Assembly: GCA_025210235.1 (NCBI GenBank)
Contig: JAOASG010000042.1
Location: forward strand, 62,001-126,000
Length of the DNA stretch: 64,000 bases
Source: Vallitalea sp.
GTDB lineage: Bacteria; Bacillota; Clostridia; Lachnospirales; Vallitaleaceae
Reading direction: 5' to 3'
The notes under the pieces are model-generated. The model worked only from the letters and a program-made list of their open reading frames with translations, did not search any database and was not told where the DNA came from. The translations under genes and the position numbers were made by a program. Shown here in pieces: positions 28,225 to 64,000 of this stretch; the first letter of the stretch is position 1, and each line of letters begins with the position of its first letter.

Positions 28225-28426
28225 TTGCGATAACTTACAAGCTATGCTATTATATGTTTAGATAGGAGGGGACTCTAATTGTTAATCCAGTTTGAGCCAC
28301 TTCGTTAGTGAGAATTAATAGTTAATTATAGTACATTATATAAATTGTTGGCAGACAACTAAATGGTATATAACCAGTTAAAGGTAAGTCAACATTCACT
28401 CTATATGAAGTGAATGTTGACTTTTT
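28225..28426 (+). ncRNA. Stand-alone leader RNA (copy A) with two motif hairpins and terminator
   Basis: A promoter-like TTGCGA, 17 bp, TATTAT (from about 28225) leads to motif A1 (28262-28300, starting ATAGGAGGGG and containing CCAGTTTGAGCC). Motif A2 (28348-28388) contains the hairpin ATGGTATATAACCAGTTAAA. A perfect 15-bp terminator stem follows (28386-28400 with 28409-28423), then T residues. A1 resembles 28782-28823 upstream of the DUF2294 gene. A2 matches 29231-29271 upstream of DUF4914 at 34 of 41 positions. No gene of its own follows the terminator, so it may be a small RNA or an orphan leader. Confidence 0.6.
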
Positions 28427-28514
28427 GTTTTTTTATAAGAATAGTAACGTACTCTCTATCTTATTATACTATAATTCAACTAATCAAGTATATAAATGAA
28501 TCATTTAAAAATAG

Positions 28515-28612
28515 ATTGGATATTAAACTACTGATGAAGTATAATATATATACTACTTCCTTTTTGTTGCCAGCAAAAGAGTATTCCCCACATCAGTAGT
28601 TTAATATCCAAT
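28515..28612. repeat. Hairpin element with perfect 22-bp arms
   Basis: The arms 28515-28536 and 28591-28612 are perfectly complementary over 22 bp (outer end ATTGGATATT, inner end CTACTGATG), with a 54-nt loop. The open frame at 28414-28599 runs through one arm and is not considered a gene. The loop contains a smaller GAAGTATA/TATACTACTTC pairing. No T-tract of terminator type follows. It might be a MITE, a processed RNA or a DNA cruciform site. Confidence 0.65.
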
Positions 28613-28781
28613 TTTATTATATAACTATTTTTCAATAGATAATTATATATTAAATGAATTGGATATAATAATAACAGAGTGTTAAAATCACTTGTGTGAG
28701 TATATTAGAACAAAAGCAATAATGCAAGAACCAAATAAAAAACTTGCAATTATTAGAATTGTATGGTACTATTTTATATGA

Positions 28782-28823
28782 ATAGGAAGGGTTCTAGATG
28801 GCTATTTGCCAGCTTAAACCAAG
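28782..28823 (+). promoter_or_regulatory. Leader RNA motif (copy B) before the DUF2294 gene
   Basis: ATAGGAAGGGTTCTAG is followed by the hairpin TGGC-TATTT-GCCAG and CTTAAACCAAG. An outer GGTT/AACC pairing closes the structure. It aligns with motif A1 at 28262-28300 in its G-rich start and its CCAG(T/C)TT end, and shares the bulged hairpin plan of A2 and C. It ends 30 nt before the DUF2294 ATG with no terminator, so control of translation or RNA stability is more likely than termination here. Confidence 0.55.
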
Positions 28824-28853
28824 CCGATATACTTAATAAATAGGAGTAGAATT

Positions 28854-29210
28854 ATGACAAAAGGACAGACAGAAGCTAAGATATGTGAAGTAATTACACA
28901 ATTTGAAGCCGAATATATGGGAAGAGGTCCCAAAAGAATTAATGCGACAATACTTAATGATGTTATTTTTGTAAGGCAATGGGGATTTTTAACTCCTGCA
29001 GAACAATTACTTGCAGAAACCCATGATGGTACTGAACTTATTAAGAAAGTTCGAACCCGTCTTTTTGAAAAGGCTAATCTAAAATTTAGAGAATCTATAA
29101 ATAAAGTGATTCAATCTAAAATTATTAGTATTCATTCGGATGTAAGTACAATCACTGGAGAGAAGATAGTGGTTATTACTTTCGATGAAAATATACAGTC
29201 AAAATTTTAA
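28854..29210 (+). CDS. DUF2294 family protein
   Basis: This 118-residue soluble protein matches the DUF2294 family pattern: N-terminal TKGQTEAKICEVITQFEAEY, GRGP near residue 23, the LTPAEQLLA segment near residue 61, and IHSDVSTITGEKIVVITFD at the end. The family's function is not established. RBS AGGAG precedes the ATG. The gene is bracketed by related RNA motifs at 28782 and 29231 and followed by DUF4914, so the three probably belong to one regulated unit. Confidence 0.88.
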   Translation: MTKGQTEAKICEVITQFEAEYMGRGPKRINATILNDVIFVRQWGFLTPAEQLLAETHDGTELIKKVRTRLFEKANLKFRESINKVIQSKIISIHSDVSTITGEKIVVITFDENIQSKF

Positions 29211-29230
29211 TTAACATAATATTTAATTTA

Positions 29231-29307
29231 TTGGAAGATAATTAAATGGTTTTTAACCAGTTAAAAATAAGCCAATATTCACAAAGTATTTTAGTGGATA
29301 TTGGCTT
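29231..29307 (+). promoter_or_regulatory. Leader RNA motif (copy C) with attenuating terminator before DUF4914
   Basis: Motif C (29231-29271) holds the hairpin TGGT-TTTTA-ACCAGTT, a 41-nt unit 34/41 identical to A2 at 28348. It runs directly into a terminator stem, AAGCCAATATTCAC (29269-29282) with GTGGATATTGGCTT (29294-29307), followed by ATTTTAATTTT. Because motif and terminator overlap, their folding is probably linked, as in attenuators and riboswitches. The ligand or factor is unknown. Confidence 0.65.
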
Positions 29308-29331
29308 ATTTTAATTTTAAGGAGGAATATT

Positions 29332-31200
29332 TTGAAATCAGAAATTGCTAAATTTAAAATTAATGAAGAAGTTAAGGATATTTTAGAAATGGCTTCAAAA
29401 GTGGTTATCCCAAAAAGTAGAGATCATTTACTTTCTCTAGCTACTTGTGGCGGACAATCAATATTTAATGTCAGTTATGAAGTTGATAACAAAGGTATAA
29501 TTGATGAAGCTACAGTAACAAAATGTAAAAATGGAGTATCTGTTAATTACCTTGAAGAATATATGAGAAGACGTGACCCTGATTGTATGGTAATTGGTGA
29601 TAATAAAAACACAGATAAAACAAGGTACAAAGAAAGATTTAATGCAGATTTTGAAGACTTGAGACTTGAGACTTTAGAATGGTTAAAAAAACAGGAGTTA
29701 ATAGTTATGCCTCTTATAGCTGGTGATGATGAGTATGGTTATGAAGCATTGCTGATTTGTCCAGTTAACGCTGCTTTTTTTGCGGCAGGTTTAGCTGATT
29801 TACAAGGATTTATACCAAAAGATCAAATAAGTAATACATTTGAACCAAAGGCAATTATTTATGTAGCTCCACCATTTAGACATACACATTTTGAGGGAAA
29901 ACAAGTTGTTGTACATAATAGACTTGAGGATGTTCATGAGGTCTTTTCATTTAATCTATATCCAGGGCCAAGTGCAAAAAAAGGTATCTATGGTGTTCTA
30001 TTAAATATGGGTGAGTTAGAAAATTGGACTACGGTCCATGCATCTACAGTAAAAATAACAACGCCATATGATAATTCACTTATTATAATGCACGAAGGAG
30101 CAAGCGGTGGCGGTAAAAGTGAAATGATTGAAGATGTTCATAGAGAAGTAGATGGTAGTATTTTATTTGCACAAAATACCGAAAGTGATGAATGTATTTA
30201 TCTTAAAATGAATGATACATGTGAGCTGAACGCTATAACAGATGATATGGCTATGTGCCATCCAGAGTTGCAAAATAATAATAAACTTGTTGTTAAAGAT
30301 GCTGAAGCAGGTTGGTTTTTGAGATTTAATCATATTACTGAGTATGGAACTTCACCACAACATGAAAAGTTATGTATACATCCACAAGAACCTTTAATAT
30401 TTTTTAATATGGATGCTTCACCTGACTCGACAATTTTAATATGGGAACACACGGAAGATGCACCCGGTAAGCCATGCCCTAATCCAAGGGTTATAATGCC
30501 ACGAAATTTTGTTCCTGGAGTTATTAAAAAACCAGTTGAAGTCGATGTTCGTAGTTTTGGTGTTAGAACACCAGCTTGTACGAAATCAGACCCAACTTAT
30601 GGAATTATTGGATGTATTCATATATTACCACCAGCATTAGCTTGGATTTGGAGACTTGTTGCTCCAAGAGGTCATGCTAATCCTAGCATTACTGATTCAG
30701 AAGGTATGACAAGTGAAGGTGTAGGTTCATATTGGCCATTTGCAACAGGTAAAATGGTAGATCAAGCTAACTTATTGTTAGAGCAAATAATAAATACACC
30801 AAGTACGAGATATGTTCTTATTCCAAATCAACACATTGGTTCATATGAAGTTGGATTTAACCCACAATGGATTGTAAGAGAGTATTTAGCTAGAAAGGGT
30901 AGTGCAAAGTTTAAAGACGAGCAAATAGAGAAATCACGTTGTTCTTTACTTGGTTATTCTTTAAAAAGATTAAGAGTTGATGGCTATAATATTCCTAAAG
31001 GCTTTTTGCAGACAAATTACCAACATAGCATAGGAGAAGAAGCTTATGATAAAGGAGCTAAGATGTTAACAGATTTCTTTAAACAAGAACTTACAAAGTT
31101 TAATACGGATGAATTATTACCACTTGGAAGAGAAATTATTAACTGTTTCATGAATGATGGCTCGGTTGAAGATTATATTAAATTAATACCTATGAAGTAA
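29332..31200 (+). CDS. DUF4914 family PEP-carboxykinase-like protein
   Basis: This 622-residue soluble protein matches the DUF4914 family. Residues near 260 carry a phosphate-binding loop MHEGASGGGKSEM similar to the P-loop of phosphoenolpyruvate carboxykinases, and CHPELQ-type and FNMDASP segments follow. These suggest nucleotide binding, but the natural substrate is unknown. The start is TTG at 29332, set by TAAGGAGGA 7 nt upstream; no ATG fits better. It is preceded by an attenuator-like leader and by the DUF2294 gene, with which it probably functions. Confidence 0.88.
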   Translation: MKSEIAKFKINEEVKDILEMASKVVIPKSRDHLLSLATCGGQSIFNVSYEVDNKGIIDEATVTKCKNGVSVNYLEEYMRRRDPDCMVIGDNKNTDKTRYKERFNADFEDLRLETLEWLKKQELIVMPLIAGDDEYGYEALLICPVNAAFFAAGLADLQGFIPKDQISNTFEPKAIIYVAPPFRHTHFEGKQVVVHNRLEDVHEVFSFNLYPGPSAKKGIYGVLLNMGELENWTTVHASTVKITTPYDNSLIIMHEGASGGGKSEMIEDVHREVDGSILFAQNTESDECIYLKMNDTCELNAITDDMAMCHPELQNNNKLVVKDAEAGWFLRFNHITEYGTSPQHEKLCIHPQEPLIFFNMDASPDSTILIWEHTEDAPGKPCPNPRVIMPRNFVPGVIKKPVEVDVRSFGVRTPACTKSDPTYGIIGCIHILPPALAWIWRLVAPRGHANPSITDSEGMTSEGVGSYWPFATGKMVDQANLLLEQIINTPSTRYVLIPNQHIGSYEVGFNPQWIVREYLARKGSAKFKDEQIEKSRCSLLGYSLKRLRVDGYNIPKGFLQTNYQHSIGEEAYDKGAKMLTDFFKQELTKFNTDELLPLGREIINCFMNDGSVEDYIKLIPMK

Positions 31201-61495: not shown

Positions 61496-64000
61496 TTATT
61501 TTGTATCGTACCAAGTCATTCCCATGTTCATATCCACTTCTAGTTTGACACTTAAATCAACAGCATTTTCCATTTCCTCTACTAAATACCTCTTGACTAA
61601 TTCTACTTCATCTTTATGAGCCTCAATTAGTAGTTCATCGTGAATTTGAAGAATTAATCTTGACTTCATATTTTTTGATTTTAGTTTTTTACTAACATTA
61701 ATCATAGCGATCTTAATTACATCTGCTGCACTTCCTTGTATTGGTGTATTCATAGCTATTCTTTCTCCAAAAGAACGTTGCATAAAATTACTTGATTTAA
61801 GTTCTTCAATAGGGCGTCGTCTATTTAGCATCGTTAAAGAATATCCTCTATCTTTTGCATATCTAATACAATTGTCTAAGTATATTTTAACACTAGGATA
61901 TTTCTTAAAATAGTTATCAATGTATTCTTGAGCTTCTTTTCTAGTTATATTAAGATCCTGACTTAAGCTAAACGCACCTATTCCATATACTATTCCAAAA
62001 TTCACAGCTTTTGCATTACTTCTTTGCAAACTAGTAACCTCATCAAATGGAATGTGAAATACTTGTGATGCTGTAAGTCTATGAATATCTTGATGATTAT
62101 TATAAGCCTCTATTAATGTTTCATCTTCTGATAAATGCGCTAATAAACGTAATTCAATTTGAGAATAATCCGCATCAATAAAAACATAATCTTCTTCTGG
62201 AACAAAAACTTTTCTAATTTCCCTACCAATATCCATTCTAATTGGTATGTTCTGTAGATTAGGTTCTATAGAACTAATTCTTCCTGTAGATGTAATTGTT
62301 TGTTTGAAAGTAGAACGTATTCTAGAATCATCATCAATATAATCAACTAAACCATCTGCATAAGTAGATTTTAATTTTGCAAGTTGTCTATACTCACTTA
62401 TTTTATCAATAATATCATGTTTACCTTTTAGTTTCTCAAGTACTCCTGCAGCTGTAGAGTAACCCGTTTTTGTTTTTTTAATTACAGGTAAATTTAATTT
62501 CTCAAATAGTATTATACCAAGTTGTTTTGGAGAATTAATATTAAAAGTTTCTCCAGCTAACTCATAAATCTCACTTTCTAACATGTCAATCATTTTACCT
62601 AGCTTATTAGAATATTCTTTTAGAAGTACTGAATTAATCTTAATACCATATAACTCCATATCAAATAGAACATTTATTAGAGGCATTTCTATTTCATAAA
62701 ATAATTTATCCATATTTAAATCGCTAATAGTATTTTTTATTTTATCATAACTATTATAAACAATATACGATAATTTACTACAGTAACTTAATAATTCTTC
62801 TTCTGCTACATCTAGATAAGAAATTTTATTTTTACCTTTTCCAAGTAACTCCTCTTCAGTTTTCATCGTTACCTTTAGATATTCTCTTGCAATATCAACA
62901 ATATCATATGTTTCTCTTGTAGGGTTAATTGTATAAGCTCCAACAAAAGTATCAAAGATAACGTTATTACATATAAAGTTATAGTTATTTAAAGTATGTA
63001 ACTCATCTTTTAGTCCATGAGTAACTTTTTTAATACTATTATCTTCAAATAAATTGCTTAATTCATTAAGAACACACATTATGTCAAAATTATTATCACA
63101 TTTAATAAAGTAAGCTTCCTTGTCATTATAACAAATGCTAATTCCTATAACATTATTTTCTTCAGTTATAATGTTAAATGCAAATAATTCTTTAGTAAAG
63201 AGAGTTTTTGTTAGGTTTACTAATTGATCTTTTGATGTAATCAAATGTTCCTCAATTATAAACGAATCACTTTCATCTTCTATTTCTATATCAAACTTTT
63301 CCAAAAGTCTCTTGAATTCTAAATTTTTAAATAGTTTATATGAATTTTCATTAAATAAATTATCAATTTTCATATTTTCTTTTTCAAAAGATATATCACA
63401 ATCTATACATATTGTAGCTAAATCTTTACTGAGAATAGCAAGATCATAATATTCTTTTAAATTTTTTGATGCTCTAGGTGGTTTTAACTCCTCTACATGA
63501 TTATAAGCTTCTTCAATAGAATGATATGTAGAAATAATTTTTATAGCTGTTTTCTCTCCAATTCCAGGTACACCTGGTATATTATCTGAAGTATCACCCA
63601 TAAGGCCTTTTAAATCAATAAACTCAGTTGGTGTTACTCCATATAAAGATATAACATCTTTATCAAAATAATTTTCTATTGTTGTAACTTTTTGCTTCGT
63701 TTTAGGGATACTAATCTTAATTTTTTGTGTTGCTAATTGTAATAAGTCTCTATCTCCAGATAAAACTGTTGTATTTATACCGTTCTCTTCACTTTTATGC
63801 GCTAAAGTACCAAGGATATCATCTGCTTCATATCCTTCAATTTCGTAAATACTAATATTCATTGCCCTTAAAACATCTTTAATTATAGGTATTTGTACTC
63901 TTAATTCATCAGGCATACCTTTTCTATTACCTTTATATTCCTTATATTTTTTATGGCGAAAAGTAGGTGCTTTAAGATCAAAAGCAACTGCTATGTGAGT
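61496..64000 (-). CDS. polA: DNA polymerase I (5' end beyond the window)
   Basis: 834 residues are visible and the frame continues past 64000 (THIAVAFDLKAPTFRHKKYKEYKGNRKG before MPDEL, given as location), so the N-terminus is missing. The 5'-nuclease domain, GEKTAIKIIS helix-hairpin-helix region, a central 3'-5' exonuclease-like domain and the polymerase are present. Polymerase motifs are DYSQIELRLLAHLS, RSNAKAVNFGIVYGIG and QIHDELLIE. The central domain lacks the usual F-D-x-E motif (FAFNIITEE), so proofreading is probably absent, as in other Gram-positive PolA. It fills gaps in repair and removes RNA primers. It is followed by coaE. Confidence 0.97.
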   Translation of the reverse strand, partial: THIAVAFDLKAPTFRHKKYKEYKGNRKGMPDELRVQIPIIKDVLRAMNISIYEIEGYEADDILGTLAHKSEENGINTTVLSGDRDLLQLATQKIKISIPKTKQKVTTIENYFDKDVISLYGVTPTEFIDLKGLMGDTSDNIPGVPGIGEKTAIKIISTYHSIEEAYNHVEELKPPRASKNLKEYYDLAILSKDLATICIDCDISFEKENMKIDNLFNENSYKLFKNLEFKRLLEKFDIEIEDESDSFIIEEHLITSKDQLVNLTKTLFTKELFAFNIITEENNVIGISICYNDKEAYFIKCDNNFDIMCVLNELSNLFEDNSIKKVTHGLKDELHTLNNYNFICNNVIFDTFVGAYTINPTRETYDIVDIAREYLKVTMKTEEELLGKGKNKISYLDVAEEELLSYCSKLSYIVYNSYDKIKNTISDLNMDKLFYEIEMPLINVLFDMELYGIKINSVLLKEYSNKLGKMIDMLESEIYELAGETFNINSPKQLGIILFEKLNLPVIKKTKTGYSTAAGVLEKLKGKHDIIDKISEYRQLAKLKSTYADGLVDYIDDDSRIRSTFKQTITSTGRISSIEPNLQNIPIRMDIGREIRKVFVPEEDYVFIDADYSQIELRLLAHLSEDETLIEAYNNHQDIHRLTASQVFHIPFDEVTSLQRSNAKAVNFGIVYGIGAFSLSQDLNITRKEAQEYIDNYFKKYPSVKIYLDNCIRYAKDRGYSLTMLNRRRPIEELKSSNFMQRSFGERIAMNTPIQGSAADVIKIAMINVSKKLKSKNMKSRLILQIHDELLIEAHKDEVELVKRYLVEEMENAVDLSVKLEVDMNMGMTWYDTK

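Follow-up and report, generated by a model that had tools for sequence, protein, structure and literature searches.

A conserved, predicted attenuator RNA beside mpsC (DUF2294) and DUF4914, and its probable link to inorganic carbon

Similar leader-like sequences recur around two genes of Vallitalea sp., namely mpsC (DUF2294) and DUF4914, which raises the question of what the repeated element is and which genes it controls. The original prediction was made from the letters of the window, i.e., the whole stretch of 64,000 nucleotides that was analysed (positions 62,001 to 126,000 of contig JAOASG010000042.1), and held that a regulatory RNA, possibly a riboswitch, controls both genes. The features on which the question turns are the following.

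28345..28396, forward strand: A2, a member of the RNA family, scoring 51.2 bits with covariance model R1 and 54.9 bits with model R2, both of which it helped to train
28348-28351, pairing with 28389-28392: helix P1 of A2
28386..28433, forward strand: intrinsic terminator of A2, with the 3' strand of A2 P1 in its 5' arm
28744..28772, forward strand: promoter-like site TTGCAA-17-TACTAT, 5' of B and mpsC, read from the sequence and conserved in the genus
28780..28831, forward strand: B, a variant member in the mpsC leader, matched by R1 and R2, with no terminator
28854..29210, forward strand: mpsC (DUF2294, PF10057; Pfam, 120 bits), the proposed trans-acting partner
29228..29279, forward strand: C, the canonical member of the RNA family, 66 bits with R1
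29231-29234, pairing with 29272-29275: helix P1 of C
29268..29318, forward strand: intrinsic terminator of C, with the 3' strand of C P1 in its 5' arm, so that the two are mutually exclusive
29332..31200, forward strand: DUF4914 (PF16260), the putative regulated gene, with a predicted PEP carboxykinase-like fold (Pfam, Foldseek and profile match)

The likeness of A2 and C on which the prediction was built is genuine: 34 of 41 positions are identical (28348-28388 versus 29231-29271), as compared with 25 in the best of 300 block-shuffled copies of the region. The pattern YTARATGGYN5RCCAGYTWAA, allowing no mismatch, occurs at exactly three sites in the 64 kb window, namely A2, B and C. Covariance models from whose training B had been left out also recognize it; R1 assigns 66 bits to C, 51 to A2 and 20.5 to B (E 0.0028), and R2 assigns 29.9 bits to B (E 6e-6). 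B keeps the AAG/AAG loop and the GAT/AGC loop at an unchanged 7-nt spacing, and its middle pairs (GGTT/AACC) are placed differently from those of other members. It is conserved 5' of mpsC in all five genus members compared. When each sequence is folded by itself, the minimum-energy structures of A2, B and C equal the consensus or nearly so, that of C being identical to it. A2, B and C are thus versions of a single structured RNA about 52 nt long. The bulged hairpin that the three had been said to share is better described as a helix, P3, with a conserved internal loop closing it.

In the consensus, helix P1 (YNGG/CCRA) is followed by an AAG/AAN loop, a step of two pairs (AC/GU), then a short internal loop and the four-pair helix P2; at the apex, an AAG/AGU loop leads into P3, whose terminal loop varies in length. 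A covariance-model search had been proposed as the way to check the RNA. Compensatory covariation is seen in two separate alignments, one of 26 RNAs and one of 37 others. The 26 RNAs, from the survey of DUF4914 loci described below, form the training alignment, which includes A2 and C and leaves out B. De novo folding of this set with RNAalifold gives one hairpin, in which 10 of 13 pairs show double changes in at least one sequence. When the named 13-pair structure is imposed on the same RNAs, 92% of the cells pair, and 71 cells carry double changes, versus 26.1 upon shuffling and 6-12 after the strands have been shifted against each other. The 37 RNAs, which the models found later, include a second reading of a training-set locus (L172) and a degraded copy (L178); in a fresh MAFFT alignment, RNAalifold recovers the same hairpin, with double changes in 10 of 11 pairs. 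Among 76 model-aligned RNAs the corresponding figure is 12 of 13, in an alignment that itself leans towards the structure. Two individual substitutions are found in the set of 37; L221 carries a compensated change within the otherwise fixed G-C pairs of P1, and L226 has G-C in place of the fixed A-U pair.

The failure to match the RNA to a known class was borne out, in that no family of Rfam release 15 exceeds its gathering threshold at the RNA. A search of the window at gathering scores returned no match; at 17 loci there was a single gathering-level match, located elsewhere, and none at the RNA; and at E<=5 none was found at the RNA in 8 loci. A known Rfam class as the identity of the RNA is ruled out by these negatives in the window and the loci.

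How the RNA might act is suggested by what follows it. The terminators that had been read directly after A2 and C were confirmed by folding; the region of the C terminator, 29249-29325, folds at -25.8 kcal/mol. We folded 75 distinct RNAs from the 3' strand of P1 to the following T-run, and a terminator-like T-run hairpin is present in 73 of them, the exceptions being the second RNA of a tandem pair in genome G374 and L219, in which the T-run is broken. In 73 of 73, all four 3' nucleotides of P1 lie within the 5' arm of this hairpin. Because the strand is shared, P1 and the terminator are mutually exclusive, and a stabilized hairpin should therefore antiterminate. Judged by its sequence, the RNA is a predicted transcription attenuator with an antiterminating hairpin, and P1 would be expected to antiterminate in cells. 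That the shared core is a real conserved attenuator we regard as nearly certain.

The genes behind the RNA were surveyed from two sides. A search for DUF4914 was positive in 21 of 22 genomes of the family and in 116 of 295 genomes of the order, and 80 loci from named genomes were kept. Where mpsC is followed by DUF4914, the stretch behind mpsC usually holds a recognizable relative of C; such relatives occur in Clostridia and Spirochaetota, e.g., in Sphaerochaeta sp. (L092) and in Spirochaetales (L097). Searches with the RNA model only gave 24 positive genomes among 295 of the order, 6 among 391 of the class (2 of them previously counted) and 22 among 398 of the phylum (1 previously counted), for a total of 49 genomes and 61 distinct places. 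Two weak places in genome G214 (25 bits) were dropped before genes were counted, leaving 59; the counts treat related genomes as separate. Thirty-three of these 59 places lead to DUF4914, two of them via purE. At 16 of the remaining 26, the first or second gene encodes a CO2/HCO3- enzyme or a HCO3- transporter. The downstream genes are listed by locus.

L170, L171, L220, L223, L227, L228: archaeal-type PEP carboxylase
L221: LarB, then archaeal-type PEP carboxylase
L218: GTP-PEPCK
L175, L184, L203, L219: PurK
L225, from an incomplete genome: carbonic anhydrase
L230: AIR-carboxylase-like protein and biotin carboxylase
L224: CO dehydrogenase epsilon-like protein and pyruvate:ferredoxin oxidoreductase
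L226: Sbt_1, of the bicarbonate transporter family (SbtA-type)
Misfits: NuoL-like/DUF1576 operon, sCache sensor, DUF3360, MFS protein, Ca2+-type P-ATPase, DUF6088, NuoE-like protein
Misfit: PPDK operon, with purE further on
Misfits: genome G207 and A2 of the window, with no regulated gene apparent or only mpsC downstream

Places found later are in line with these and have the orders RNA-AIRC-mpsC-biotin carboxylase beside a divergent Sbt_1 gene (L247), RNA-mpsC-biotin carboxylase (L245) and mpsC-RNA-purE-purK (L241). The common denominator of the downstream genes is CO2/HCO3-, which argues for an inorganic-carbon theme of the regulon; the 10 of 26 non-DUF4914 places that have no clear CO2 gene count against it. 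On balance, we consider this theme probable, and we infer that inorganic carbon is the signal.

Two side observations concern these loci. At L231, the RNA and its terminator stand 5' of a DUF6088-like gene, an odd partner for the regulon. In L197, L199, L200 and L212, a protein of 141-172 aa is encoded between the RNA and DUF4914 or PPDK; its L197 copy gave no Pfam match and its L212 copy no NCBIfam match.

DUF4914 itself looks like a divergent PEP carboxykinase. When its predicted structure is compared with the PDB by Foldseek, the best 50 rows are all PEPCK, with a best E of 4e-10, and the best PDB profile match is ATP-PEPCK (E 0.038). The HEGASGGGKSEM loop is invariant in 12 sequences. Because the structural model is poor (pLDDT 62), the PEPCK match is taken as a lead; if it is right, the gene fits the CO2 theme by virtue of being a PEP carboxykinase. 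DUF4914 was not found in the viral contigs searched, and viral spread was rejected on this ground. In four loci that lack mpsC (L009, L011, L012 and L013), another conserved leader, ..AACATTCAGGATGAT..CAGACCTGT.., stands 5' of DUF4914.

Of the two genes that the original prediction had placed under the RNA, control of DUF4914 is thus strongly supported, by covariation, attenuator layout and occurrence in 49 genomes, whereas mpsC appears less an ordinary target than a partner. The coding sequence of mpsC, or in a few cases a remnant of it, ends just 5' of 58 of the 75 RNAs, at a median gap of about 15 nt. Since mpsC adjoins the RNA in these cases while the downstream gene changes, MpsC looks like a partner rather than an ordinary target. 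PF10057 is present in 43 of the 49 RNA-positive genomes. Among the 295 genomes, 19 have both RNA and MpsC, 5 the RNA only, 5 MpsC only and 266 neither (Fisher 4e-21, with relatedness ignored); outside the order, MpsC is found in 24 of 25 RNA-positive genomes. The MpsC-only genomes comprise G197, which has a weak RNA (L040, 22.7 bits), G011-G013, with another MpsC subfamily, adjoined by a Na+/H+ exchanger in the G011 and G012 loci, and G139, with a weak MpsC match. The RNA-positive genomes without MpsC are G107, G194, G261, G997, G207 (73% complete) and G214 (weak). An mpsC remnant lies beside the RNA in G107, G261 and G997, and the short remnant reading frame of G107 recurs in G194.

The loss of mpsC can be read in both directions. 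In L107, L104, L106, L087 and L082, apparently one lineage, mpsC has been lost or survives as a remnant; the RNA there scores 52.7, 35.1, 25.8, 15.6 and 15.5 bits, respectively, with the terminator intact. The decay of the RNA after loss of mpsC, with the terminator kept, suggests that the RNA depends on MpsC. Conversely, G107, G194 and G997 have seemingly intact RNAs with only mpsC remnants beside them, and MpsC may therefore be dispensable; unless the losses are recent, the good preservation of the RNAs in G107 and G997 argues against dependence. The protein is mostly acidic (pI below 7 in 19 of 22). Its model is confident (pLDDT 95), and structural comparison gave a best Foldseek E of 0.038 and VIA Z scores of at most 7.5 to unrelated proteins, i.e., no clear RNA-binding relative. 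In Staphylococcus aureus, the accessible part of PMC6689103 describes deletion of mpsC as having no growth phenotype, the gene being dispensable for MpsAB function, and mpsA mRNA as lower in 5% CO2. Taken together, we regard a role of MpsC as the trans-acting partner as evenly balanced.

A second MpsC subfamily (MEKGQMEAHIS.. or MTKGQLEALIS..) precedes a transporter gene in L235, L236, L238 and L239. The transporter was confirmed as a Na+/H+ exchanger in L235, and no RNA was found next to mpsC in these four loci, which counts against the partner role of MpsC.

The explanation that we rank first, at roughly an even chance, is an inorganic-carbon transcription attenuator with MpsC as its trans-acting partner in a bgl-type layout. 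Structure, terminator overlap, gene associations and mpsC co-occurrence are computed, and it is the layout, i.e., a lone hairpin over a terminator, an adjacent small gene and the variant B, that places MpsC-held antitermination first. The nascent RNA would fold in two exclusive ways, either as the irregular hairpin or as the terminator that re-uses the 3' strand of P1. MpsC, produced from the gene just upstream, would bind the RNA and hold the hairpin, as an RNA-binding antiterminator or as a co-sensor, and its activity would follow the supply of CO2/HCO3-. If the hairpin were held, polymerase would read into DUF4914, PEP carboxylase, PurK and other genes; if not, transcription would end. Within the window, mpsC would be autoregulated through B in its leader, and C would gate DUF4914. 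It counts against this explanation that an ON response would be expected more readily of carboxylase genes than of uptake genes.

Ranked second, and entertained with some reserve, is a riboswitch. That is, the RNA alone would bind bicarbonate, carbonate or a small carboxylation-linked metabolite, probably via Mg2+ in both of its conserved internal loops, thereby stabilizing P1 and antiterminating; MpsC would then be a regulon member that is the usual first gene by chance. A riboswitch would account for the high conservation of unpaired nucleotides within a compact fold and for the several RNAs that control genes distant from mpsC, and it agrees with the intact RNAs beside mpsC remnants, with the tandem RNAs of G374, about 120 nt apart, and with the acidity of MpsC. 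However, an aptamer consisting of one irregular hairpin, with neither junction nor pseudoknot, would be a simple one, the RNA stands directly behind mpsC in 58 of 75 cases whichever gene follows, and it decays after mpsC is lost. The proposal that this roughly 50-nt RNA binds bicarbonate or CO2-derived carbonate directly, as the first RNA-level sensor of inorganic carbon with MpsC as an accessory, seems to us rather unlikely, and we extend the same doubt to its corollary that the RNA turns on genes for carboxylases, carbonic anhydrase and bicarbonate transport in both Bacillota and Spirochaetota.

Another protein, whether ribosomal or a general RNA-binding one, could also decide whether hairpin or terminator forms, as could transcription-translation coupling through the mpsC stop codon, where a terminating ribosome could, given the median gap of about 15 nt, cover part of the RNA; we consider this improbable, because RNAs far from any mpsC end keep the same core and because ribosome masking leaves the conservation of both internal loops unexplained. 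That the repeats are mere terminators or chance similarities with no regulatory function is hardly credible, for although all well-formed copies but two have a terminator, the covariation in P2 and P3, outside the terminator, refutes this reading unless the alignments are wrong, and the repeats recur 5' of functionally related genes. MpsC-held antitermination remains ranked first, its margin over the riboswitch being small because MpsC is mostly acidic and its model is without a telling relative.

The region 5' of mpsC contains further elements.

28225..28253, forward strand: promoter-like TTGCGA-17-TATTAT, with TG before the second hexamer, 5' of A1; from a consensus scan, and may be chance
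28262..28300, forward strand: A1, a B-like leader element, by sequence comparison only
28515..28612, no strand assigned: long inverted repeat lying 3' of the A2 terminator and 5' of the mpsC promoter, kept at the orthologous place in genome G016
28723..28748, no strand assigned: TGCAAG-N14-CTTGCA, an inverted repeat that overlaps the mpsC promoter at its -35, kept in five of five genus members

The reported resemblance of A1 to B is visible by eye, and A1 recurs before an A2-type RNA in G016, but neither R1 nor R2 matches it at E<=1, and its membership in the family is unconfirmed. The inverted repeat at 28515-28612 has a conserved inner stretch. It was considered as a dispersed repeat or MITE, and this was rejected because its occurrences in 22 genomes are confined to the neighbourhood of A2-type RNAs in G000 and G016. 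In G016 the order is A1-A2-terminator-palindrome, followed by a NuoL-like/DUF1576 operon; in the window the same block runs straight into the mpsC promoter. The idea that A1 and A2 are a duplicated B-mpsC-C unit minus mpsC was replaced in view of the G016 arrangement. Because the block precedes the operon there, it is more likely that the window lost that operon, and such a loss is probable. A2 of the window may now gate readthrough into mpsC, or it may be a relic. The TGCAAG-N14-CTTGCA repeat is probably the operator of some regulatory protein. Other genera show similar TTGCAA sites 5' of mpsC or DUF4914.

Bacteria reliant on carboxylation have to adjust their enzymes to the supply of CO2/bicarbonate, and the RNA may act as the RNA-level sensor of inorganic carbon that has long been missing. 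By the open-access literature searched, an RNA class devoted to inorganic carbon would be new; that literature holds no mention of 'bicarbonate riboswitch' or 'DUF4914' and only an unrelated mention of DUF2294, and searches with combined terms returned nothing relevant among the matches listed. MpsC, which has no assigned role in the mpsABC operon, gains a testable function, DUF4914 is marked out as a candidate divergent PEP carboxykinase, and the RNA offers a handle on CO2-responsive gene control.

Among known systems, the RAT RNA of BglG/LicT is an irregular hairpin with two internal loops that overlaps the 5' arm of a terminator, and the bgl-type layout consists of an element, the regulator gene, an element with terminator, and the target. 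In Streptococcus mutans, according to the accessible part of PMC1489936, the regulator gene licT adjoins the RAT RNA. The present RNA is alike in that its hairpin is mutually exclusive with an intrinsic terminator (73 of 75) and in that mpsC, the gene of the putative regulator, adjoins 58 of 75 RNAs. It differs in that MpsC matches only PF10057, with neither the CAT (RNA-binding) nor the PRD domains in Pfam, and in that the targets are CO2 genes here and sugar uptake there. An ANTAR site consists of tandem stems whose hexaloop is fixed; by that definition it differs from the RNA described here, which is a single hairpin with a variable loop in the 26 and 37 aligned RNAs. In ANTAR antitermination, too, a protein-held RNA hairpin is set against a terminator (PMC3369931 and PMC3369936, in their accessible parts). 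With the riboswitch classes of Rfam the RNA shares a conserved structured core, a candidate aptamer, and a terminator as expression platform, but it has no Rfam match in the window and the loci searched. The Na+ riboswitch (DUF1646 motif) is likewise an elemental-ion switch for transport genes; it differs in that Rfam gives no hit here and in that the accessible part of PMC9337991 makes no mention of Mps, bicarbonate or DUF2294. Finally, for the MpsABC system of S. aureus, with the bicarbonate transporter MpsAB, the accessible part of PMC6689103 reports no RNA and assigns no role to MpsC; the likeness is that mpsC is tied to bicarbonate genes.
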